DNA from: Glycomyces sambucus
GTDB lineage: Bacteria; Actinomycetota; Actinomycetes; Mycobacteriales; Micromonosporaceae
Reading direction: 5' to 3'
Assembly (NCBI RefSeq): GCF_900102815.1
Contig: NZ_FNGF01000004.1
Span: forward strand, 310,001-374,000
DNA length: 64,000 nucleotides
Part shown: in pieces, positions 6,973 through 34,560 of the stretch
Layout: each line of letters opens with the position of its first letter
Position numbering within the stretch: the stretch's first letter is position 1
Program-made: the position numbers and the translations under genes
The notes under the pieces: model-generated
Told to the model about the DNA's origin: nothing
The model's input: the letters and a program-made list of their open reading frames with translations, nothing else
Database searches by the model: none

Positions 6973-8112
6973 ATGTCCGGTCACGACCACCCGCATCACC
7001 GCCATGAGGCCCACGGTCATGAGGACCACGACCGTGCCCACGACGATCATGCCCATGACGACCATGCGCAGCACGGCCACGCCCACGACGACCGTGCGCA
7101 CCATGACCGCGAGCCTCACGACCACACCCACGACCACCGAGGCGGCCGGGCGCACCGGCTGCGGCACCTGCTCGCGCCGCACTCGCACGACAGCGCCGAC
7201 AAGACCGACCGGGCGCTGGAGTCGAGCCGGGAAGGGCTGCGGGCCTTGTGGATCTCGCTCGCGGTACTCGGGGCGACGGCCATCGCGCAGGCGGTCGTGG
7301 TCGCGTTCACCGGTTCCGTGGCCCTGCTCGGCGACACCCTCCACAACGTGGCCGACGCGCTCACCGCGATCCCGCTCGGGATCGCGTTCCTCCTCGGCCG
7401 CCGCGCGGCCACCCGCCGCTACACCTACGGGTTCGGGCGGGCCGAGGACCTGGCCGGGATCGTCATCGTGGCCTTCATTGCCGCCTCGGCCGTGGCCGCC
7501 GGGGTCGCGGCGGTCGACCGGCTCCGGCACCCCGCCGAGGTCGACCACCTCTGGGCGGTGGCCGCGGCGGGCCTGATCGGCTTCTGCGGCAACGAACTCG
7601 TCGCCCGCTACCGCATCCGGGTCGGCCGCCGGATCGGCTCGGCGGCGCTGGTCGCCGACGGCCTCCACGCCCGCACCGACGGGTTCACCTCCCTCGCGGT
7701 GCTGCTCGGTGCGGGCGGGGTGGCGCTGGGCTGGGACTGGGCCGACCCGGTCGTGGGCCTGGCGATCACGGTCGCGATCGCGCTGGTGCTCAAGGACGCC
7801 GCATGCCAGATCTGGCGGCGGCTGATGGACGCGGTCGACCCGGACACCGTCGCCGCGGCCGAAGCGGTGCTCGCGGCGACGCCGGGCGTGCGGCGCGTCG
7901 ATGCGCTGCGGCTGCGCTGGGTCGGGCACCGGCTCCACGGCGAGGTCGACCTCGCCGTCGACGCCGCGCTCACGGTCACGGCCGCCCACGCCATCGCGGT
8001 CGACGCCGAGCACCGCCTCATCCACGCCGTGCCGCACCTCGCCCGCGCGACCGTCCACATCGACCCTGCGGACCACGCTGACGCGCACCGGGTCCTGGCG
8101 GGCCACCGCTGA
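6973..8112 (+). CDS. Cation diffusion facilitator (CDF) metal exporter with His-rich N-terminus
   Basis: 379 residues. The first 60 residues contain 21 His and many Asp residues, a putative cytosolic metal-binding tail of unusual length. About six membrane segments follow. The paired metal-site signatures are GDTLHNVADAL (segment 2) and VADGLHARTDGFTSL (segment 5), both HxxxD. A C-terminal cytosolic domain (about 290-379) with HGEVDLAVDAALTV follows. Such proteins export Zn, Co or related divalent metals in exchange for protons. ATG start with GGGAGA upstream. The gene is monocistronic, with no metal regulator beside it; it converges on the HxlR gene. Confidence 0.9.
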   Translation: MSGHDHPHHRHEAHGHEDHDRAHDDHAHDDHAQHGHAHDDRAHHDREPHDHTHDHRGGRAHRLRHLLAPHSHDSADKTDRALESSREGLRALWISLAVLGATAIAQAVVVAFTGSVALLGDTLHNVADALTAIPLGIAFLLGRRAATRRYTYGFGRAEDLAGIVIVAFIAASAVAAGVAAVDRLRHPAEVDHLWAVAAAGLIGFCGNELVARYRIRVGRRIGSAALVADGLHARTDGFTSLAVLLGAGGVALGWDWADPVVGLAITVAIALVLKDAACQIWRRLMDAVDPDTVAAAEAVLAATPGVRRVDALRLRWVGHRLHGEVDLAVDAALTVTAAHAIAVDAEHRLIHAVPHLARATVHIDPADHADAHRVLAGHR

Positions 8113-8121
8113 CCGGCGAGG

Positions 8122-8487
8122 TCAGTCCGCGGGCGCCTCGGCGCGCTCGCGGGCGGCGAGGATGTCGGGCACGTGCGCCTCGGCCCACTGGCGCACGGCT
8201 CGCAGCGGCACCAGCAGGGAGCGGCCGAGGTCGGTGAGGGCGTACTCGACGTGCGGCGGGTTGCCGCCGAGGTCGGTGCGCACGAGCAGGCCGTCGGCCT
8301 CCATGGCGCGCAGGGTCTCGGTGAGGGCCTTCGCGGTGATGCCGCGGATGTGGGCCTTGAGCCCGGTGAACCGCATCGGCCCGGCTTCGAGTGCGTTGAC
8401 CACGAACACGGTCCAGCGCGCCCCGATGCGGTGCAGCACGGTGCGGCTCGGGCACGTCGCCGCCATCACGTTGTACGCCTTGCCCAT
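8122..8487 (-). CDS. HxlR-family transcriptional regulator
   Basis: 121 residues of the MarR/HxlR winged-helix type. It begins MGKAYNVMAATCPSRTVLHR with the Cys near residue 12 typical of the family. The core RWTVFVVNALEAGPMRFTGLK and HIRGITAKALTETLRAME (recognition region) follow, then the wing. GGAGGAG lies 5-6 bases before the ATG. It is divergent from the SDR at 8544 with an array of three half-sites in the shared promoter, so it probably represses both genes. The inducer may be a reactive electrophile or quinone sensed by the Cys, as in other HxlR proteins; this is inference. Confidence 0.88.
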   Translation of the reverse strand: MGKAYNVMAATCPSRTVLHRIGARWTVFVVNALEAGPMRFTGLKAHIRGITAKALTETLRAMEADGLLVRTDLGGNPPHVEYALTDLGRSLLVPLRAVRQWAEAHVPDILAARERAEAPAD

Positions 8488-8511
8488 CAGGCTCCTCCCG
8501 GTAGCGTTGCG

Positions 8512-8534
8512 TATACCGGTATAGATTGTATACC
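8512..8534. promoter_or_regulatory. HxlR operator: three TATACC/GGTATA half-sites
   Basis: TATACC-GGTATA (8512-8523) is a perfect 12-bp palindrome. Its right half forms a second inverted repeat with TATACC at 8529-8534 (5-base spacer). The array sits between the divergent HxlR and SDR genes. Confidence 0.7.
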
Positions 8535-8543
8535 GTCGGGCCC

Positions 8544-9224
8544 ATGAAGCAGGAACTGACAGGCAAGCGCATCCTCATCGTCGGCGGCGCCCGCGGTATC
8601 GGCGCCGACCTCGCCCAGCGCGCGGCGAAGGCCGGTGCCCAGGTCACCGTGGCCGCGCGATCCGGGACCGAGGTCCGGATCGACGTCACCGACGAAGCGA
8701 CCATCGAGCGGGCCGCGGCGTCGCTCGATGCCTTCGACCACGTGGTCTCCACCGCGTCGGCCCACCACGACGTACCGGTGGCCGACCTCGAAGCAGAGAG
8801 GATCCAGGCCGCGTTCGCCGCCAAGGTCACCGGCCCGCTGCTGCTGGCCAAGCACTTCGCGCCTGCGATGCCCGAGGGCGGGTCGTTCCTGTTCTTCTCC
8901 GGCATCGTCGGATGGCGTCCCAAGCCGGGCACGGTCGTCAAGGGCACCGCGAACGCGGCGCTCGCGGCGCTCGTGACGCACCTGTCGGTGGAGCTCGCGC
9001 CCTTGCGCGTCAACGCGATCGCACCGGGAATCACCGACTCCGGCACCTGGGACCGGCTCCCGGACGAGCGCCGCCGCGCCCTGTACGACGGCGCCGCCGC
9101 GGCCTCGCTCACCGGCCGGGTCGGCACGCTCGACGACGTCGGGGAGGCCGCCCTGTGGCTCCTCGGCGCCGGCTGGGTCACCGGCGAGACGGTCCACGTC
9201 GACGGCGGCTCCCGCCACCGCTGA
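8544..9224 (+). CDS. Atypical short-chain dehydrogenase/reductase (SDR) lacking YxxxK
   Basis: 226 residues. The Rossmann nucleotide site is intact (LIVGGARGIGADLAQRAAKAG) and the C-terminal VNAIAPGITDSGTW and TGETVHVDGGSRHR are typical. At the catalytic position the usual YxxxK is replaced: the stretch GTVVKGTANAALAAL aligns with KxxxN where Tyr and Lys are expected. It may be a non-canonical reductase, an isomerase-like enzyme or a binding protein. ATG at 8544 chosen because the upstream frame enters the operator. Divergent from, and probably controlled by, the HxlR gene. Confidence 0.8.
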   Translation: MKQELTGKRILIVGGARGIGADLAQRAAKAGAQVTVAARSGTEVRIDVTDEATIERAAASLDAFDHVVSTASAHHDVPVADLEAERIQAAFAAKVTGPLLLAKHFAPAMPEGGSFLFFSGIVGWRPKPGTVVKGTANAALAALVTHLSVELAPLRVNAIAPGITDSGTWDRLPDERRRALYDGAAAASLTGRVGTLDDVGEAALWLLGAGWVTGETVHVDGGSRHR

Positions 9225-27008: not shown

Positions 27009-27671
27009 TCAGGACGGCGGTGTCTCGGGCCAGAGGTCGATGAGGTCGCCCGGGCCGAGGCCCAGGGCCCGTTCGATGTCGCCCGGCGAGGTCGCCTGGA
27101 GGTACTGCGAGACCGTGCCGGTGAGGTCCCGCCAGTACCCGCGCAGCGTGGACTCCGAGAGGAACAGCGACCGGCTCAGCTCGGCGTAGGTCAGGCCGCG
27201 GGCGCGGCCGGCCAGGACGTCGCGCTGGCGGGGCGTCAGGATCGTGAGCGCGCCCCGCCGCGCGAGCACCTCGATCAGGCCGGTGACCGCGGGCGGCAGC
27301 ACCAGCTCCCCCTCGGCCACCGCGCGGAAGGACGTCTCGGCGTCCTCCAATGAGGACGCCTTCGAGACCACGCCCAGCGCTCCGGCCGCGAGGCACGCGG
27401 CGAGCACGAACCGGCGCTCCTCCTGGGTGTACACGCACACCCGGTACCCGGCCCCGATGACCTGCCGCACCGCCGCGATCCCCTGGCTGGCGGCGGGTTG
27501 CAGGACGTTCGTCAGGTGCAGGTCGAGGATCACCACGTCGGCGGGCGGGCGCTCCTCCAGGAGCTCTTCGACGTTGCGGTGGACCGACACGAACTGCATG
27601 GCGGGCAGCAGGTCCGCGATCGAGGCCCGCAGGGCCGTCGCGTCGTCGACCATCGCGAACCGCGCCGTCAT
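27009..27671 (-). CDS. Response regulator with LuxR-type DNA-binding domain
   Basis: 220 residues. Receiver domain 1-120: acidic pair Asp9-Asp10 (AMVDD), phosphoacceptor Asp50 in VVILDLHLTN, and conserved Lys104 in VVSKAS. C-terminal LuxR HTH about 143-205 (ILTPRQRDVLAGRARGLTYA). The recognition helix SESTLRGYWRDLT differs from the common S-x-x-T-V-K-x-H form, so DNA specificity may be unusual. The start overlaps the kinase stop by 4 bases (ATGA). Faces the peptide/ABC/protease block at 29-32.9 kb and is a candidate controller of it. Confidence 0.87.
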   Translation of the reverse strand: MTARFAMVDDATALRASIADLLPAMQFVSVHRNVEELLEERPPADVVILDLHLTNVLQPAASQGIAAVRQVIGAGYRVCVYTQEERRFVLAACLAAGALGVVSKASSLEDAETSFRAVAEGELVLPPAVTGLIEVLARRGALTILTPRQRDVLAGRARGLTYAELSRSLFLSESTLRGYWRDLTGTVSQYLQATSPGDIERALGLGPGDLIDLWPETPPS

Positions 27672-28846
27672 CGGGACCCTCCGCCGCGGACCGCCGTGTA
27701 CCTCGCGTGCAGGACGGCCGTGGTGCCGAGGCCGGGCATGCTCGTGATCTCGGCGGTCACACCGCGGGTCGCAAGCTGGTCGACGACGACTTGGCGCAGG
27801 CCCACGCCGAACGACTCCGGCGCCGCGTGGAACCCGATGCCGTCGTCGTGGACGGTGACCGCCCAGCCCCCGCCGTCGGCGGACTCCTCGGCGTGGATCA
27901 CCACCTGCCCCGCCCCGGCGTGCTGGTGGACGTTGAGGAGCAGACTCCGCAGGGCCGCACCGAGATCCGCGGCGAGGCCCGGTTCGAGGCGCACGCCCAC
28001 GGCGAGGTCGGCGACGACGGTGAGCGGCATGTCCGCGTGCTCGGCGCCGATCGCGGACACCACCGCGGCCAGGTCGGTCTGGTCGCCGTCCACCCGCGGC
28101 GTGCCGCTCAGGTAGGCGCGCATGCGGTTCACCTCCGTCTCGGCCTGCACGCGCAGGCGCGCACGGGTCGCCTCGTCCGCGGACTCGTCGGCGAGCAGCC
28201 GCAGCAGCGCCGTGCCATTGTGGACGGCGAGCCGGGCCCGGCGCTCCTCCTCCTCGCGGGCGATCCGCGCGGCGTAGGCGCGGGCCTCGTCCGCCTTGTT
28301 CCCGATGCGGATCACGACCCGGGTGCTCACCCACGTGAGCGGGCCGACCGCGAGCAGCGTGAACAGGTTCCCGACCGCGGTGGGCAGGTCCCGGACGCCG
28401 TGGACCGTGGGCGCCAGGTACAGGACCTCGGCCGCCGCCAGCGCCAGCATGAGCGCCGCCCAGGTCTCCCGGCGGCGCACGCCCGCAAGGGAGCACGCGA
28501 CGCACACCGCGTACGCGAGCTGGAACCCCTCCCAGGTCCCGAAGCGCATCTCCGGCGGCACCGTCCACGTCCCGACCACGAGCAGGCCCACGGCCACCGC
28601 GACGTCCGCGGTCTCGAACCGGGCCCCCGGCGGCGTCCGGCGCGCGATCGCGACCACGGCGATCCCGACCAGCATCGCCAGCGCCGAGCCCCAGCTCACC
28701 GCGACCAGGACGGGGAACTCGGTGCCCTCCAACGCGTACGGGACCGACGGCGCCATCTGGACGACCGTGGCCAGGCGGATCCCGGCGACGAAGAACGCCG
28801 CCAGGCGCTGGGCTTCGATGCGGGTGGAACCCGTCGGAGGGGGCAC
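27668..28846 (-). CDS. Membrane sensor histidine kinase (NarL/DesK class)
   Basis: 392 residues if the GTG at 28846 is used; a longer frame exists but its extra part reads like non-coding sequence and enters the divergent promoter. About five or six membrane segments (about 12-180) precede a coiled stretch IAREEEERRARLAVHNGTAL with the presumed phosphoacceptor His209. The context V-H-N-G is not the usual L-H-D. The ATPase domain is intact: N-box LLLNVHQHAG, G1 DDGIGF, G2 GVGLRQVVV. Cotranscribed with the response regulator. Signal is unknown. Confidence 0.85.
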   Translation of the reverse strand: MPPPTGSTRIEAQRLAAFFVAGIRLATVVQMAPSVPYALEGTEFPVLVAVSWGSALAMLVGIAVVAIARRTPPGARFETADVAVAVGLLVVGTWTVPPEMRFGTWEGFQLAYAVCVACSLAGVRRRETWAALMLALAAAEVLYLAPTVHGVRDLPTAVGNLFTLLAVGPLTWVSTRVVIRIGNKADEARAYAARIAREEEERRARLAVHNGTALLRLLADESADEATRARLRVQAETEVNRMRAYLSGTPRVDGDQTDLAAVVSAIGAEHADMPLTVVADLAVGVRLEPGLAADLGAALRSLLLNVHQHAGAGQVVIHAEESADGGGWAVTVHDDGIGFHAAPESFGVGLRQVVVDQLATRGVTAEITSMPGLGTTAVLHARYTAVRGGGSR

Positions 28847-29030
28847 CTCTGCATTTTGGCGCCCCGCGTCCAGCAACGGGGGCCGGCGGCCGAAAAATGC
28901 GGATTCGTTGGGTATCGGGCCCACTCGGGCGGCCCTAGCCTGAGGCCATGAACGCCACCCCTCGACCGCATCTTCGACGACCGCTCCGAACCCGATTCCC
29001 GTACGTGCGACGCCAGCTTGGGGAACCGCC

Positions 29031-29273
29031 ATGCAGATAGAGCCCACGCACCTCGACACCGCCAGCTACCTGACCGTCCGCCAGCGCCGGGTGATCGCCT
29101 GTGTGGCGCAGGGGATGTCGAACACCGACATCGCGACCGCGCTGTTCATCTCGCTGAGCACCGTGGAGCGCGAGCTGCGCCGCGCCCGCCGGACGCTGCG
29201 CGCCGCCAACCGCGCGGAGCTCGTGGCGAACGCCGCGTGCCGCGGACTGATCGGCATTCACCGATCCCGGTGA
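29031..29273 (+). CDS. Orphan LuxR-type HTH protein (80 aa)
   Basis: 80 residues, essentially only a LuxR/GerE DNA-binding domain: SYLTVRQRRVIACVAQGMSN, then the recognition helix region LSTVERELRRARRTL and the fourth helix. No receiver or ligand domain. Divergent from the histidine kinase gene (gap about 180 bases) and the first gene before the peptide/ABC/protease genes. Stand-alone GerE-like proteins regulate development or bacteriocin loci elsewhere; here a local activator role is inferred. A hairpin overlaps its stop codon. Confidence 0.82.
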   Translation: MQIEPTHLDTASYLTVRQRRVIACVAQGMSNTDIATALFISLSTVERELRRARRTLRAANRAELVANAACRGLIGIHRSR

Positions 29274-29287
29274 CGGGTGCCCGTCAC
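29270..29287 (+). terminator. Hairpin overlapping the LuxR-type gene stop
   Basis: GTGACGGG (29270-29277) pairs with CCCGTCAC (29280-29287); the 2-base centre makes it near-palindromic. It may also be a regulator site. Confidence 0.45.
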
Positions 29288-29457
29288 GGATTGACGGTCT
29301 CCCATCAACGCCTCCGCGATCCCTTGACCGCGCAGCGTGAGCGGCGCCAGCATCGAAACCGGCGGAGGACGCACGACCGGTCCGCCGCCGCATCGAAGAC
29401 CGGGGCGGTCCGCAAGGGCCGCGTCCGGTCGCCCCACTCCCATTGAAAGGGAATCCC

Positions 29458-29718
29458 ATGACCGAGTTCATGACCCTGGCCGGCGTCAAGGCGACCACCG
29501 CGGGCGCCTCCCTGGCCGGGAAGGCCAAGGACCGCTTCGACGACCTGCTCGTCCGCTACGACGCGTGGTTCCTGGTGTTCATCGCCGTCCTGCTCGCCCT
29601 GGGCGCGACGCTCCTGGCCGGCATGGCGATCTGGTGCCTGGTGAACCAGAAGGGCCGCTTCACCGGCTCGTGGCGCTGGGACAGCGGCATCGCCGTGTCC
29701 ATGGAGTGCGTGCGCTAG
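29458..29718 (+). CDS. Small single-pass membrane peptide (86 aa), unknown
   Basis: No family recognised. 86 residues from the ATG at 29458, with GAAAGGGA 5-6 bases upstream. An amphipathic N-terminal part (about 1-35, with AGKAKDRFDDLLVRYDAW) is followed by one membrane segment, FLVFIAVLLALGATLLAGMA (about 38-57). A polar C-terminal tail follows, GRFTGSWRWDSGIAVSMECV, with two Trp and one Cys. It sits directly ahead of an ABC ATPase, permease, 2-TM protein and M50-like protease. It could be the substrate peptide or a transporter subunit; neither is proven. Confidence 0.65.
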   Translation: MTEFMTLAGVKATTAGASLAGKAKDRFDDLLVRYDAWFLVFIAVLLALGATLLAGMAIWCLVNQKGRFTGSWRWDSGIAVSMECVR

Positions 29719-29890
29719 CGCGACGCACCCCGTGGGCTGACACGTCAGTCTCATCAACGCGGAGGGTTCGTCCGATTCGGAGCCGCGAGCGCCATGCCGG
29801 GCGCGATCGGCCTCGCCGTCACATCGGGCCGGACGGGCGGACCCTTCCGCGACCATCGTATCCGACCGCATCGCCGAGGAGCGGGACAAC

Positions 29891-30607
29891 GTGAACGACC
29901 TGGAGATCACCGGCCTGACCCACTCGTACGGGCGGGACGCGAGGGCCCTGGACGGGGTCGGCTTCGCCGTCCCGCGCGGATCGATCGTCGGCCTGCTGGG
30001 GCCCAACGGGTCCGGCAAGTCGACGCTCATCAAGAACGTGTTCGACCTGCTGCGCCCGCAGGCGGGGACGATCACGATCGACGGGAGCCCCCACGCCGCA
30101 CCGGACGCGAAGCGGAAGGCGGTCTACCTGTCCAGCAACGACTACCTGCCCGAGTTCCTGACGGCCGCCGAGTACGCGGCGATGATCGCGAGGTTCTACG
30201 GGCTCGAAGTGGACCGCGAGGAGGCCCTGGAGCTGTTCTCGCGCTTCGGGATGGACGGGCGCTACGACGACCTCGTCGAGGACTACTCGCACGGCATGCG
30301 CAAGAAGACGCAGCTGATGGTGGCGCTCATGGTGCGCCGCCGCCTCACCGTCATCGACGAGACGCTCAACGGCGTCGACCTCGAAGCGCTGCACCTGGCG
30401 GAGAAGGAGCTCGCTGGCCTGCGCGACGAGGGCCTGTCGGTGCTGCTGTGCACGCACGACTTCCCGGTGCTCGAACGGCTCGCCGACGAGGTCGTGTTCC
30501 TCGACCGCGGCCGCGTCGTCTACAACGCACCCACGGCCGACCTCGTCGCCGAGCACGGGTCGCTGGAGCGGATGGTCTACGGCTACCTCGAATCGGGCGA
30601 GCGGTGA
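29891..30607 (+). CDS. ABC transporter ATP-binding protein
   Basis: 238 residues, GTG start. Walker A is LGPNGSGKSTL near 36-46. The signature is degenerate, YSHGMRKK instead of LSGGQ. Walker B is LTVIDETLNGVD, with the catalytic Glu retained and the following Pro replaced. The H-switch is CTHDFP. The degenerate signature (xSHGMxKK) is typical of ATPases serving ABC-2-like exporters of natural products, bacteriocins and immunity systems. Its stop overlaps the permease start (GTGA). Part of the 29.4-32.9 kb block. Confidence 0.88.
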   Translation: MNDLEITGLTHSYGRDARALDGVGFAVPRGSIVGLLGPNGSGKSTLIKNVFDLLRPQAGTITIDGSPHAAPDAKRKAVYLSSNDYLPEFLTAAEYAAMIARFYGLEVDREEALELFSRFGMDGRYDDLVEDYSHGMRKKTQLMVALMVRRRLTVIDETLNGVDLEALHLAEKELAGLRDEGLSVLLCTHDFPVLERLADEVVFLDRGRVVYNAPTADLVAEHGSLERMVYGYLESGER

Positions 30608-32133
30608 ACCTGCGGATGCGGCAGTCGGCGCACCTGGCCGGCCTGCTGCTGCTGTTCTTCCGCCGCCGGGTGCTGCGCGTAGGCCTGCTGCGCGCCAGGG
30701 CGGTCCGCGCGGGCGCCGCGGTCCTGGCGCTCACGCTGTTCGGGGTGCTGTGCGCCGCGGCGTACCTGTTCCTGGAGCCGCTGGCGCTCTCCCCGGAGCT
30801 GTGGGACCTGATGTTCCGGATCAGCACGGTCTCGCTGGTGCTGTGGGCGATGGGCGCGTTCCTGGTCGTGAAGGTGCTGTTCATCAACGCGGCGGACATG
30901 CTGGAGCTGACCTACCAGCTGCCGGTCACCAATCGCGAACGGGCGCTGGCGTTCCTGATGTACGAGGCCGCGATCACCGGGTGCGTGACGGCCCTGGGGT
31001 TCGCGGCGCTCGCGGTGTCCTCGATCGCGCTCATGGGTGTTTCGGCGCTGCCGTACCTCGTCACGGCCTTCGCCGTCCCGGCCGCGGTGGTCTACTTGGG
31101 ACTCGGGGTGCTGCACCACCTGCTGGTGCGCTTCTGGACCCTGCTCAGGCTGGGGAACATCGCCGGGCTCCTGTCGGTCATCGTCCTGTTCATACTGCTG
31201 GTGTGGTACTCGACGACGATGAACGCGACCATCGTGGCGATCACCGACGGGTACTTCGACGGCGGCGGGGTGTTCCTGTGGCAGAACGCGGTCGCGTGGC
31301 TGTGGGACCGGAGCCCGGTCCTGGCGCTGGCCGCGTCGCCGGCCGCCGTCGTGGCCCTCGTCGGCGCGAACCTGGCGCTGACGCCGGACCAGTACGTGCG
31401 CCAGTCGAAGTTCCTGTCGCTGTTCACCGAACCGTACGCGCGCCGGGTGCTGCATGCGTACGACTACTGCCTGGTGCGCAACTCCCAGACCGCGGTCGCA
31501 GCGGTCGTCACCGTGGTGCTGTACGCCTACCTGCTCATCGCCGGGCCCGGGATCAATCCGATGTGGAGCCTGGTGGCGCTGTCGACGGCGGGCCTGTACC
31601 ACTACTCGGGTACCGAGCCGCTGCGGCGCCTGCCGATCGCGACCCGCTCGGCGGGCCTGGTCTACGCGCGGCTGTGCAAGGGCCAGGTCCTGCTCATCGC
31701 CGCGTTCGCGGTGCCGCAGTTCCTCATCGGGGCCCTCGTCGACCCGGCGGCGATGACGGACTCGGCGATGCCGCTGCTCGGCGCGTTCGCCGGGATCGTC
31801 CTGACCGTCTGGGTGTCGGTCGTCTTCCCCTCGGAGAGGAACAACCCGTTCTCCATCCTGCTCGGCATCGCCTGCGCCGCGGTCGTGTTCGGGCTCATCG
31901 CGATCGGCCTCGGCATGCTCGACCTGCCCGCGGCCGTCACCCGGGCCGTCATCGCCTGCTGCGCGGCGGCGGTCGCCGCCCACTCGATCGTCGAGATCCA
32001 CGACAACGAATCCAAGAGGAGCAACCGTGAAGAAGTTCCGAATCATCCTGGTGTCGCTCGGGAGCGCGCTGGTCATCACCCTCGCCGCGACCGTCGTGTC
32101 GCTGATGCTGCTCATGTTCTCCACGACCGGTGA
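30604..32133 (+). CDS. ABC-2-like multi-pass permease (509 aa)
   Basis: GTG start overlapping the ATPase stop. About ten to twelve membrane segments, for example VRAGAAVLALTLFGVLCAAA, ISTVSLVLWAMGAFLVVKVL and GNIAGLLSVIVLFILLVWY, with the cytoplasmic loop ELTYQLPVTNRERALAF typical of ABC-2 permeases of bacteriocin or lantibiotic immunity exporters. The membrane part ends near residue 470. The last ~35 residues (after NESKRSN) are Arg/His-rich and run 107 bases into the next gene in a different frame, an unusually long overlap. Either the natural stop has been lost or the tail is real. Confidence 0.8.
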   Translation: MNLRMRQSAHLAGLLLLFFRRRVLRVGLLRARAVRAGAAVLALTLFGVLCAAAYLFLEPLALSPELWDLMFRISTVSLVLWAMGAFLVVKVLFINAADMLELTYQLPVTNRERALAFLMYEAAITGCVTALGFAALAVSSIALMGVSALPYLVTAFAVPAAVVYLGLGVLHHLLVRFWTLLRLGNIAGLLSVIVLFILLVWYSTTMNATIVAITDGYFDGGGVFLWQNAVAWLWDRSPVLALAASPAAVVALVGANLALTPDQYVRQSKFLSLFTEPYARRVLHAYDYCLVRNSQTAVAAVVTVVLYAYLLIAGPGINPMWSLVALSTAGLYHYSGTEPLRRLPIATRSAGLVYARLCKGQVLLIAAFAVPQFLIGALVDPAAMTDSAMPLLGAFAGIVLTVWVSVVFPSERNNPFSILLGIACAAVVFGLIAIGLGMLDLPAAVTRAVIACCAAAVAAHSIVEIHDNESKRSNREEVPNHPGVARERAGHHPRRDRRVADAAHVLHDR

Positions 32134-32347
32134 CGAGCCGGTCCGCAAGACCGCGCTCTTCGACGCCGTGTACTTCGAGGTCACCGAGGCCAGCGCGAAC
32201 TCCACCAGCGCCACCATGGGCGTCGACGGATTCGTCCCGCTGGCGGTGATCTTCGCGGTCGTCGCGGCCTTCATCGCCCTCGTCCAGATCATCCTCGACA
32301 CGCTCCAGACGCGCCGCCGCCAGCTCCTGGCGCAGCGCGGTGAGTAG
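32027..32347 (+). CDS. Small two-TM membrane protein (106 aa), unknown
   Basis: No family recognised. GTG start with AGAGGAG 5 bases upstream. Two hydrophobic segments: IILVSLGSALVITLAATVVS (about 6-30) and PLAVIFAVVAAFIALVQIIL (about 71-92). Between them is a ~40-residue segment (TGDEPVRKTALFDAVYFEVT and SANSTSATMGVDG), and a basic cytoplasmic tail follows. Lies inside the peptide/ABC/protease block and overlaps the permease 3' end by 107 bases and the protease start by 8 bases, so all three are probably coupled. An accessory or immunity-type protein is one guess. Confidence 0.68.
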   Translation: MKKFRIILVSLGSALVITLAATVVSLMLLMFSTTGDEPVRKTALFDAVYFEVTEASANSTSATMGVDGFVPLAVIFAVVAAFIALVQIILDTLQTRRRQLLAQRGE

Positions 32348-32861
32348 CCGCGGCGCCCGCTCCGGAGCCTCCCTCCGGGGCGTGGCGCTCGCGGTGGCCG
32401 CGCAGGTCTGGCCGCTGCTGGCGCTCGCCTCGCTGATCCTCGCGGCGGCGCTCGGCTGGGCGGCGGTCAGCGGCGACACGACCCAGCTCCCGGTGGCGGC
32501 GTGGATCTTCCTCGCCGCCACCGCGGGCCTCACGGCCTCGTTCGCCCTCCACGAGTGCGTCCACGCCCTACTGCTGCACCGCATCCCGACGGTCGCCTCG
32601 GTGACGGTCGAGCGCACGCCCGCCCGCATTTCGGTGGTCCCCCGCGGCCGCATGACGGGATGGCAGACGGCGGCCGTGGCCGCGGCGGGCCCGCTCGCGT
32701 GCGTCCTCGCGGGCGCCGCCCTCGCGGTGCATGAGGCCACGCGCCCGCTCTCGTGGTGGTACCTCGGGCACGTCCTGTTCCTGCTCCCCCTCTTCGGCGA
32801 CGGCACGGCCCTCGTGAAGGGCCTGCTCGCGGGTCCGCGCCTCCTCGACGTCGGCCGCTGA
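32340..32861 (+). CDS. M50/S2P-like intramembrane metalloprotease (DUF3267-type)
   Basis: 173 residues, GTG start. The zinc motif HECVH (His71, Glu72, His75) is in a hydrophobic helix AGLTASFALHECVHALLLH. An AAGPLA element at about 116-121 and GDG around Asp154 in LFGDGTALVKG give the third ligand position. These three elements, with four membrane segments, are the hallmarks of site-2-protease/M50 and DUF3267 zincins. They cleave peptides within the membrane, including bacteriocin or pheromone precursors. Last gene of the block. Substrate may be the 86-residue peptide at 29458-29718 (inference). Confidence 0.78.
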   Translation: MSSRGARSGASLRGVALAVAAQVWPLLALASLILAAALGWAAVSGDTTQLPVAAWIFLAATAGLTASFALHECVHALLLHRIPTVASVTVERTPARISVVPRGRMTGWQTAAVAAAGPLACVLAGAALAVHEATRPLSWWYLGHVLFLLPLFGDGTALVKGLLAGPRLLDVGR

Positions 32862-32880: not shown

Positions 32881-34443
32881 TCAGAAGCGGCCGAAGAGCC
32901 AGGCGCCGGGGCGGTCCTCGCCGGTGCAGAAGCCGCGCACCGCCTCCACCAGTTCCTCGGCGCTCACCTTGCCGTCGCCGTCCAGGTCCAGGGCCCGGCA
33001 GGTGCGCTCGACCTCGGCGGGTTCCTGGCGGCAGGCGATGAGGAGGCGGGCGAGTTCGGTCCGGTCGAGGACGCCGTCGCCGTCGGCGTCCACGAGGGCG
33101 ATGACGGCCGCGGCGAGCGGGCGCACGGCCGCGGCGAACCCCTCATGACGCGATCGCCCCGCGACCCAGGCGCGGTACTCCGCCGCGGCGACCGTGCCGC
33201 TCCCGTCGGTGTCGGCGGCCGTGCGCACGGCGTTCCACAGCCGGCGGTAGCCCTCGCGCACCGCGACCGCCTCGGGCGAGCGCGGGGCGTGGCCGAGGGA
33301 GCGGGCCAGGCGCAGGGCGAACGCGTCGTAGTCGTCGCGGGCGAGGCGCCCGTCGCGGGACTGGTCGAGCAGGTCGAAGCGGTGCGCGGCGACCTCGATC
33401 GCGGCGGCTTCGGCGGCCAGGTGCGCCAGTCCGAACGCGAGCGCGCTGGGATGGCCGGCGGCGAGCATCCCGGCGTGCGAGGCGCTGTCGTGCGGCACGT
33501 CGAGGACCGAGGCGCCGGCCTCGCGCAGTGCGGCGGCGAACGCGCGGACCGGGCCGAACGGCAGGACCTCGTCGGCGCGGCTGGCGGCGATGAACACGGG
33601 CCGGTCGAGGTAGGTCACCGGGACGCTCACGGCCGCAAGGACTTCGGCCACGTCGGGGACGGCGGCCACGCCGGTGGTCCCGGCGGCGTCGTTGGTGAGG
33701 CCGCGGACCGCCCGGAACATGTCCCTGAGCGTCGCCCCGGCGGCCCGGGAGACGAGCGCGGCCCCGACCGGCGTGAGGGTGTCGGCGACGTCGAAGTCGG
33801 GATGGGTGACGGCCACGCCCGCGAGGGTGAGGATCGTGATCGGCGAGAGCGGGCCCGCGCCGTCCGCGGTGAGGTGCGCGACGAGGTCGGCGACGCACGC
33901 GGCGGGCGCGAGTGCGATGGTGCCGCGGAAGTCGAGCTCGGGGGCGTAGCCGGTGGCGATGTTGGCGACGTGCATCGCGGCGTGCCCGCCCTGGCTGAAC
34001 CCGGCGACGAGCCAGGCGTCGGCGATCGGGTGCCCGAGGCCGCGGAGCGCGCGGACGGCGTCCACGACGTCGTCGGCGACCGCCTCGCCGTTGAAGTACG
34101 GGTGCGGGCCGGGCGTGGCCAGGCCCTCGTAGTCGGTCGCGGCGACGGCGTACCCGGCCGCGAGCCAGCGCCCGATGTGGTCGCGTTCGAGGCGGGAGAA
34201 GCCCGACCGGGAGGGCGCGGAGGCGTTCGACAGGCCCGTGGTGCCGTGGGCGAAGGCCACGACCGGCCAGCCGGACCCGGGCGCCCGTCCGGCGGGGAGG
34301 AACGCGGAGCCGGAGACGAGGCGGCGTTCGCCGTCGTAGCCGAAGCCGCGGTAGAAGATCCGGTGCGCGGCCGACGCCTCGTCGGGCCAGAACCGGCGCG
34401 GCAGCGGCCGGTGCCGCACGAGCGCCCCAGGTGCCCAGGTCAT
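32881..34443 (-). CDS. Alpha/beta-hydrolase lipase fused to four EF-hands
   Basis: 520 residues from the ATG at 34443, preceded by GGAGG. Residues about 20-345 are a secretory-lipase-type (LIP, PF03583-like) hydrolase: nucleophile Ser150 in AGFSQGGHAAM, probable acid Asp291 and His323 (ASHAGM). Residues about 350-505 form a calexcitin-like calcium-binding domain with loops at 360-371, 411-422 (DTDGSGTVAAAE), 452-463 (DADGDGVLDRTE) and 486-497 (DLDGDGKVSAEE). All four have acidic residues at positions 1, 5 and 12 (position 3 is Ser in the first). No signal peptide is seen. Calcium-controlled lipase activity is inferred. Confidence 0.85.
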   Translation of the reverse strand: MTWAPGALVRHRPLPRRFWPDEASAAHRIFYRGFGYDGERRLVSGSAFLPAGRAPGSGWPVVAFAHGTTGLSNASAPSRSGFSRLERDHIGRWLAAGYAVAATDYEGLATPGPHPYFNGEAVADDVVDAVRALRGLGHPIADAWLVAGFSQGGHAAMHVANIATGYAPELDFRGTIALAPAACVADLVAHLTADGAGPLSPITILTLAGVAVTHPDFDVADTLTPVGAALVSRAAGATLRDMFRAVRGLTNDAAGTTGVAAVPDVAEVLAAVSVPVTYLDRPVFIAASRADEVLPFGPVRAFAAALREAGASVLDVPHDSASHAGMLAAGHPSALAFGLAHLAAEAAAIEVAAHRFDLLDQSRDGRLARDDYDAFALRLARSLGHAPRSPEAVAVREGYRRLWNAVRTAADTDGSGTVAAAEYRAWVAGRSRHEGFAAAVRPLAAAVIALVDADGDGVLDRTELARLLIACRQEPAEVERTCRALDLDGDGKVSAEELVEAVRGFCTGEDRPGAWLFGRF

Positions 34444-34560
34444 GTGGTCCTCCGTCGAGTCGAGACGGTTCAAGGAGAGGACATGGGGCCCTTCCGCACC
34501 ACCCTCAACCGCCGCACCGGGCGCCGCGAGCGCCGCATCCGTCCAGACGGCGCCGGGGCG

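Follow-up and report, generated by a model that had tools for sequence, protein, structure and literature searches.

We analyzed a 64,000-nucleotide stretch of the Glycomyces sambucus genome (contig NZ_FNGF01000004.1, positions 310,001 to 374,000; hereafter the window), in which six open reading frames (ORFs) encode a small membrane peptide, the ATPase and permease of an ATP-binding cassette (ABC) transporter, two further membrane proteins, and a helix-turn-helix (HTH) protein. Sequence comparison and analogy with the characterized system suggest, with a probability of about 0.9, that five of these genes form a complete biosynthetic cluster for a TMcin, in the order tmcA-B-C-E-P. TMcins, which are bacteriocins of the ribosomally synthesized and post-translationally modified peptide (RiPP) type, are a class of antimicrobial peptides published in 2025 (PMC12328743), and their biosynthesis was reported in a 2026 preprint (PMC13252029). 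An ORF check of the window placed all six ORFs on the forward strand, with the same coordinates and lengths as in an earlier note on this DNA.

29031..29273, + strand: HTH gene, orphan LuxR/GerE-type protein, 80 aa
29458..29718, + strand: tmcA, putative TMcin precursor, 86 aa, ATG start
29891..30607, + strand: tmcB, ABC ATPase, 238 aa, GTG start
30604..32133, + strand: tmcC, ABC permease, 509 aa, GTG start
32027..32347, + strand: tmcE, putative escort protein with two transmembrane (TM) segments and a loop between the spans, 106 aa, GTG start
32340..32861, + strand: tmcP, putative S2P-clan (DUF3267-like) intramembrane metalloprotease, 173 aa, GTG start, HECVH and distal GDG motifs

The peptide gene begins after a gap of 184 nt and the ATPase gene after one of 172 nt; overlaps of 4 nt (tmcB/tmcC), 107 nt (tmcC/tmcE), and 8 nt (tmcE/tmcP) follow, in agreement with the earlier description of six codirectional genes with short gaps and then overlaps. 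Scans of the six proteins against Pfam and NCBIfam gave names to the ATPase and HTH protein only. We compared the synonymous (pS) and non-synonymous (pN) fractions between the window and its nearest relative (locus L026 in genome G007), and found that pS exceeded pN in all six genes (pS/pN: HTH, 0.356/0.063; peptide, 0.267/0.096; ATPase, 0.260/0.082; permease without the overlap, 0.289/0.091; two-TM protein, 0.250/0.077; protease, 0.395/0.162). Because of this pattern and because five of the genes keep their order in 10 other loci, we regard the six ORFs as real genes rather than chance frames.

Conservation and distribution of the five-gene cluster

Profile searches recovered the complete A-B-C-E-P set in 11 of 17 stretches: the window, L026, L027, L028, L038, L039, L040, L055, L096, L097, and L098. 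Of the 10 loci besides the window, nine came from separate actinobacterial genomes, spread over four genera, and one (L055) from a contig in a viral collection. The profiles were built from seven of the 11 complete loci, and the TmcA profile also included L055 and four plasmids, all of which match by construction; L096, L097, and L098 were independent of the profiles. The earlier note had grouped the peptide with a membrane protease and an ABC exporter and proposed a search for this gene order; the same five-gene order in the 10 other loci confirmed the grouping, and the 86-aa gene was retained beside its partners in relatives.

In a set of 61 relatives, the genomes with strong peptide matches (E ≤ 2.6e-22) were the same four as those with protease matches, and these were also the four of 22 genomes of the genus containing the permease. 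A contig scan with the permease returned Glycomyces lechevalierae DSM 44724 (82% identity) as the sole relative. Searches of 394 genomes of the class, in which no more than three permease and 13 peptide candidates were scored in each genome, gave five genomes with the permease profile (among them the genome of the window itself and a decayed copy) and seven with the peptide profile at E ≤ 0.01, four of them strong (including the window's own). Apart from the window, strong peptide matches occurred in three distant genomes (6.0e-31, 5.1e-25, and 1.5e-20), and exactly these had a near full-length permease match, at the same loci. We dropped as chance the other three class-level peptide matches (E 0.005–0.01) and 14 of the 18 peptide matches among the 61 relatives (E 0.007–0.09). 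Matches were present in five of 157 genomes from the family of G319, one of the three distant genomes, all in one genus, and a phylum-wide draw of 396 genomes returned the window's own genome only.

Of the 33 loci identified by scanning viral contigs with the ATPase, L061 duplicates the L055 contig, and the remaining 32 (21–50% identity) are presumed to encode ordinary ABC ATPases. No match was obtained by tblastn of plasmids with the window permease or of phages with the window and L055 peptides, whereas a plasmid search with the L040 peptide retrieved six Bacillota records. Four Bacillota plasmids differed from A-B-C-E-P in gene order or content. All five genes of Staphylococcus epidermidis pHOB2 (NZ_CP018844.1; L056) were matched by profile, in the order B-C-E-P-A, and TmcC and TmcE were unrecognizable by profile in L058 (CP124688.1). 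A decayed copy in another actinobacterial genome (L041:6894-7986, − strand) consisted of tmcE, a tmcC tail, and a tmcP fragment. L099 retained tmcA-B-C-E, with no HExxH motif in the three forward frames at the expected place of tmcP (8100-9000). The distribution, the decay of L041 and L099, and the differing plasmids indicated that the locus occurs rarely and patchily and has at times been lost.

Features of the core and flanking genes

Hydropathy analysis indicated a single TM segment in TmcA, and W37, W59, C60, F68, G70, and C84 were invariant in the peptide alignment, with the two Trp and two Cys residues (W37, W59, C60, and C84) retained in 15 of 15 aligned peptides. The seven actinobacterial peptides, when aligned, had both Trp and both Cys residues invariant and a hairpin-like tail, which suggested a disulfide-closed hairpin. 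Structural prediction of the peptide alone, a check proposed earlier, yielded a low-confidence AlphaFold2 model with a helix (residues 37–64) and a beta-hairpin (strands 67–73 and 79–85). Profile-profile comparison of the seven actinobacterial peptides with four Bacillota peptides and one viral-contig peptide gave a score of 99.9% (E 1.3e-31). Peptide identity between the window and L040 was 56%, as compared with 24–37% for the other four genes; however, it was 46% for L038 (ATPase, 57%) and 42% for L039 (ATPase, 44%), showing that the peptide is not generally the most conserved part of the cluster.

The TmcA leader is predicted to extend to about residue 33–35, with cleavage between residues 33 and 36, directly before Trp37. 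This site was placed using Cys 25/50 (mature numbering) of TMcin-G1905, the characterized TMcin, and alignment with pHOB2, which has a 45-residue leader. The predicted product would comprise 51–53 residues with a mass of 5.6–5.9 kDa, as compared with 5.8 kDa for published TMcin-G1905. The earlier suggestion of a leaderless peptide was rejected, since an S2P-type protease cuts the leader in the published TMcin model.

TmcB matched ABC_tran (6.9e-24), and its Walker A motif (GPNGSGKS), Walker-B glutamate (E157), and SHGM-KK were invariant in 7/7 aligned orthologues; with its SHGM signature conserved, the ATPase does not look degenerate, as it had previously been described. TmcC gave no Pfam or NCBIfam match at E ≤ 1, its orthologues adjoined tmcA in other loci, and 11 hydropathy peaks were found in the window and pHOB2 proteins alike. 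Sequence searches of the PDB with the permease and protease produced no useful match. The tmcC/tmcE overlap (32027-32133, 107 nt) recurred at approximately 101–107 nt in L026, L027, L028, and L038, and was short in L039 and L040. The final ~35 codons of tmcC consist only of this overlap; the tail showed a pS of 0 and a pN of 0.167 between the window and L026, as expected for an unselected extension, whereas L027 and L028 exhibited the reverse pattern (pS/pN 0.200/0.068). An additional tmcC-like permease fragment was located upstream of the complete cluster in L096 (3404-3826, + strand).

Two hydropathy peaks in TmcE corresponded to two TM segments, and its orthologues occupied the equivalent place in the 10 other complete loci. 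The TmcE profile matched pHOB2 (6e-21) and Roseburia (1.3e-11), neither of whose sequences was part of the profile. TmcP exhibited four hydropathy peaks, and HExxH and a distal DG were retained in all seven orthologues first aligned; the loss of HExxH, which the earlier note had named as evidence against a peptide-processing unit, was seen only in the later-added L099. The proteases of L038, L039, and L059 matched PF11667 (DUF3267) below the cut-off, and pHOB2 TmcP matched the profile of the seven actinobacterial proteases at 96.7% (E 3.2e-10). The best PDB match of the TmcP model was the archaeal S2P mjS2P (PDB ID: 3B4R; probability 0.99, E 0.059, TM-score 0.44), and the third was SpoIVFB (probability 0.69). 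3B4R is also the structure match given for TmcP in the preprint (PMC13252029).

The HTH protein matched GerE (2.1e-12). An orphan HTH gene lay upstream of the cluster in 4/4 Glycomyces loci, with 24–89% identity to that of the window (24–34% for the L027 and L028 versions). For 16 loci, we compared the ORFs of at least 55 aa lying up to 4.5 kb from the core using blastp (E ≤ 1e-4), an approach that misses diverged genes. The HTH protein matched no flanking ORF of other genera in this comparison, and no HTH family scan was made on those actinobacterial flanks. By these comparisons, the HTH gene falls outside the conserved core; its earlier inclusion in the unit held insofar as it is constant upstream of the cluster in Glycomyces, but not as a core component. 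The sole cross-genus flank match was an HTH pair on the Paraclostridium and Roseburia plasmids, and in the actinobacterial loci compared, we saw no additional gene that accompanies the five core genes across genera. In L058 (record annotation) and L059, the HTH genes have DUF2975-type neighbors that the flank comparison did not pair, and its silence is therefore weak evidence.

Several other genes were observed near the clusters. A second orphan LuxR-type HTH gene, convergent and directly downstream of tmcP, was present in L027 (3510-4001) and L028 (3733-3933, + strand), with the family scan made on the L027 copy. In the window, divergent histidine-kinase-like and response-regulator genes were found at 27009-29059 (− strand); this pair was matched beside the cluster in L026 of G007, and not in L027 or L028. 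A single 530-aa ORF at 32881-34473 (− strand) encodes a secretory-lipase-like hydrolase with C-terminal EF-hands.

Assignment to the TMcin class and alternative explanations

According to the first report, TMcin-G1905 is a secreted and purified 5.8-kDa peptide that forms large pores and kills Gram-positive bacteria; its N-terminal half is a TM helix and its C-terminal half a two-stranded sheet pinned by a disulfide, and for both Bacillota and Actinomycetota the report describes homologues with an operon of tmcA, tmcP, and tmcBC (PMC12328743). The preprint assigns leader removal to TmcP (S2P-clan DUF3267), export to TmcBC, and disulfide formation in staphylococci to TmcD, and describes two-TM TmcE as an escort presumed to prevent self-harm during biosynthesis (PMC13252029). 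The window contains the five core genes and a single-TM TmcA with two Cys and two Trp residues and, in the model, a two-stranded sheet. The cluster, which the earlier note had regarded as a candidate undescribed system, is a complete, divergent actinobacterial member of this known class (PMC12328743; PMC13252029). Nothing in the evidence pointed to a membrane-stress sensor, which had also been suggested.

Whereas the gene set, conservation, motifs, and predicted folds were observed here, we infer cleavage, disulfide formation, export, and pore formation from the published S. aureus model. TmcA would be made as a single-span membrane protein with its N-terminus inside, and TmcP, aided by TmcE, would cut the leader directly before Trp37. 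No tmcD (DsbA) gene was found among the ten block and neighbor proteins scanned, and VKOR and DsbA-like genes are present elsewhere in the genome. Since we found no oxidoreductase within the block, the Cys60-Cys84 disulfide would probably be formed in trans by the VKOR/DsbA-like proteins of the cell. The TmcBC exporter would then pull the helix-plus-hairpin product from the membrane, and the freed peptide could enter membranes of competing Gram-positive bacteria and assemble beta-barrel pores. Regulation and self-protection are more indirect proposals: the orphan LuxR-type HTH protein is probably a local regulator, and immunity lies either in the core or in different or diverged genes.

Several observations weigh against the TMcin assignment. 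The link to S. aureus G1905 TmcA runs through pHOB2 and described features, and not through its own sequence; pCT545, the G1905 plasmid, was not among the plasmid matches, and pHOB2 carries no gene annotated as DsbA, although most published staphylococcal clusters have one. The TmcA and TmcP models were each built from three sequences, with a mean pLDDT of 62 for TmcA (58–67 in the block after the helix) and 76.5 for the best of five TmcP models (52.5–72.5 for the others). No PDB match of the models reached E ≤ 0.001, including 3B4R with the values given above. Hydropathy indicated 11 spans in TmcC as compared with the published 12, window TmcP had no Pfam match at E ≤ 1, no immunity gene was recognized, and our literature search turned up no test of an actinobacterial TMcin.

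We considered three rival explanations and one more speculative form of the TMcin reading. The first rival is that the cluster is a TMcin cluster by descent that is silent or non-functional in the Glycomyces strain. Decayed copies such as L041 and L099 exist, and no sigma-70-type promoter was found at the locus by a scan blind to other promoter types; however, all frames of the window are intact, pS exceeds pN in every gene, and purine-rich stretches precede tmcA, tmcB, and tmcE by eye, leaving this a minor possibility. Comparably doubtful is the speculative form, a TMcin system rewired in Glycomyces, in which the LuxR-type HTH protein takes the place of the membrane protein and other kind of HTH protein of the Bacillota plasmids, no DsbA is carried, and the core genes themselves, most likely tmcE, provide self-protection. 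If this were true, the pore-former, under LuxR-type control in a mycelial host, could serve kin killing or developmental lysis in addition to competition.

The second rival is a peptide-pheromone system, presumably like the Eep/PptAB loci. Here the S2P-type protease would process TmcA, and a short C-terminal signal would leave the cell through the ABC transporter and elicit a response of the HTH protein. In its favor, such a system has the same components (a peptide, an S2P-type protease, and an ABC exporter), and an HTH gene adjoins the cluster; however, conservation spans the helix, hairpin, and both Cys residues, more than a short linear signal would require, the homologues share the architecture of a characterized pore-former, and the HTH protein, which at 80 aa is too small to include a receptor domain, is unmatched in other genera, making this reading very unlikely. 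Least credible is a single membrane complex of the five gene products with TmcA as a permanent small subunit and nothing released, which would suit the L040 comparison but not those with L038 and L039, the retained protease motifs, or the secretion and purification of TMcin-G1905 (PMC12328743).

The assignment of the window cluster to the TMcins extends a new antimicrobial class of which the two papers characterize one member (PMC12328743; PMC13252029). Glycomyces is not named in the main text of PMC12328743, and our literature search found no study of the Glycomyces TMcin lineage. The relatives show which genes are always kept, which bears on self-immunity, though the comparison may miss diverged genes. 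Since the window protease lacks a Pfam match, domain-based mining would overlook such clusters.

Comparison with known systems

The window cluster resembles the TMcin-G1905 cluster of S. aureus pCT545 in its single-TM precursor with two Cys residues and Trp at both helix ends, its ATPase and permease, its two-TM protein, its S2P-type protease with HExxH and Asp, its predicted product of ~5.8 kDa, and a nearby HTH gene. It differs in its order (A-B-C-E-P vs. B-C-E-P-A), its 107-nt tmcC/tmcE overlap, the lack of a tmcD among the proteins scanned, its orphan LuxR-type HTH gene in place of a two-gene regulatory operon, and its location on a contig that is 374 kb or longer rather than a small plasmid. 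pHOB2 shares the five genes with the window but has the order B-C-E-P-A and another kind of HTH gene, in a two-gene operon, on a 9.3-kb mobilizable plasmid. With its 297-bp tmcA, tmcP as the fourth ORF with HEYLH, and HTH operon, it resembles the published staphylococcal cluster, for which a 9.4-kb plasmid and a TmcP motif of HEYMH are reported (PMC12328743; PMC13252029).

The plasmids of Paraclostridium bifermentans (L058) and Roseburia sp. 831b (L059) encode, like the window, homologues of tmcA and tmcB together with a membrane protease carrying HExxH, but thioredoxin-type genes adjoin their clusters. These are a Thioredoxin_4 gene (L058:10678-11088) and a thioredoxin-DsbD-like gene (L059:8119-9627), and they contrast with the statement in the preprint that tmcD is missing outside staphylococci (PMC13252029). 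The HExxH protease of L058 (9511-10404) carries an N-terminal PqqD domain (PF05402, 1.2e-13). PqqD-type domains are known to bind RiPP leader peptides. The term PqqD is absent from the main text of PMC12328743 and PMC13252029.

An epipeptide (Yyd-type) identity was rejected because the scan of ten block and neighbor proteins did not reveal a radical SAM enzyme, an absence already recorded in the earlier note. Yyd loci presumably share a peptide, an M50-type protease, and an ABC transporter with the window, whose peptide differs in being membrane-spanning with two invariant Cys residues. The Eep/RasP with PptAB/EcsAB systems of pheromone processing have similar parts, with a short membrane peptide that is cleaved by an S2P-type protease and an ABC transporter for export, whereas the window contains a dedicated, conserved cluster with a large conserved product.

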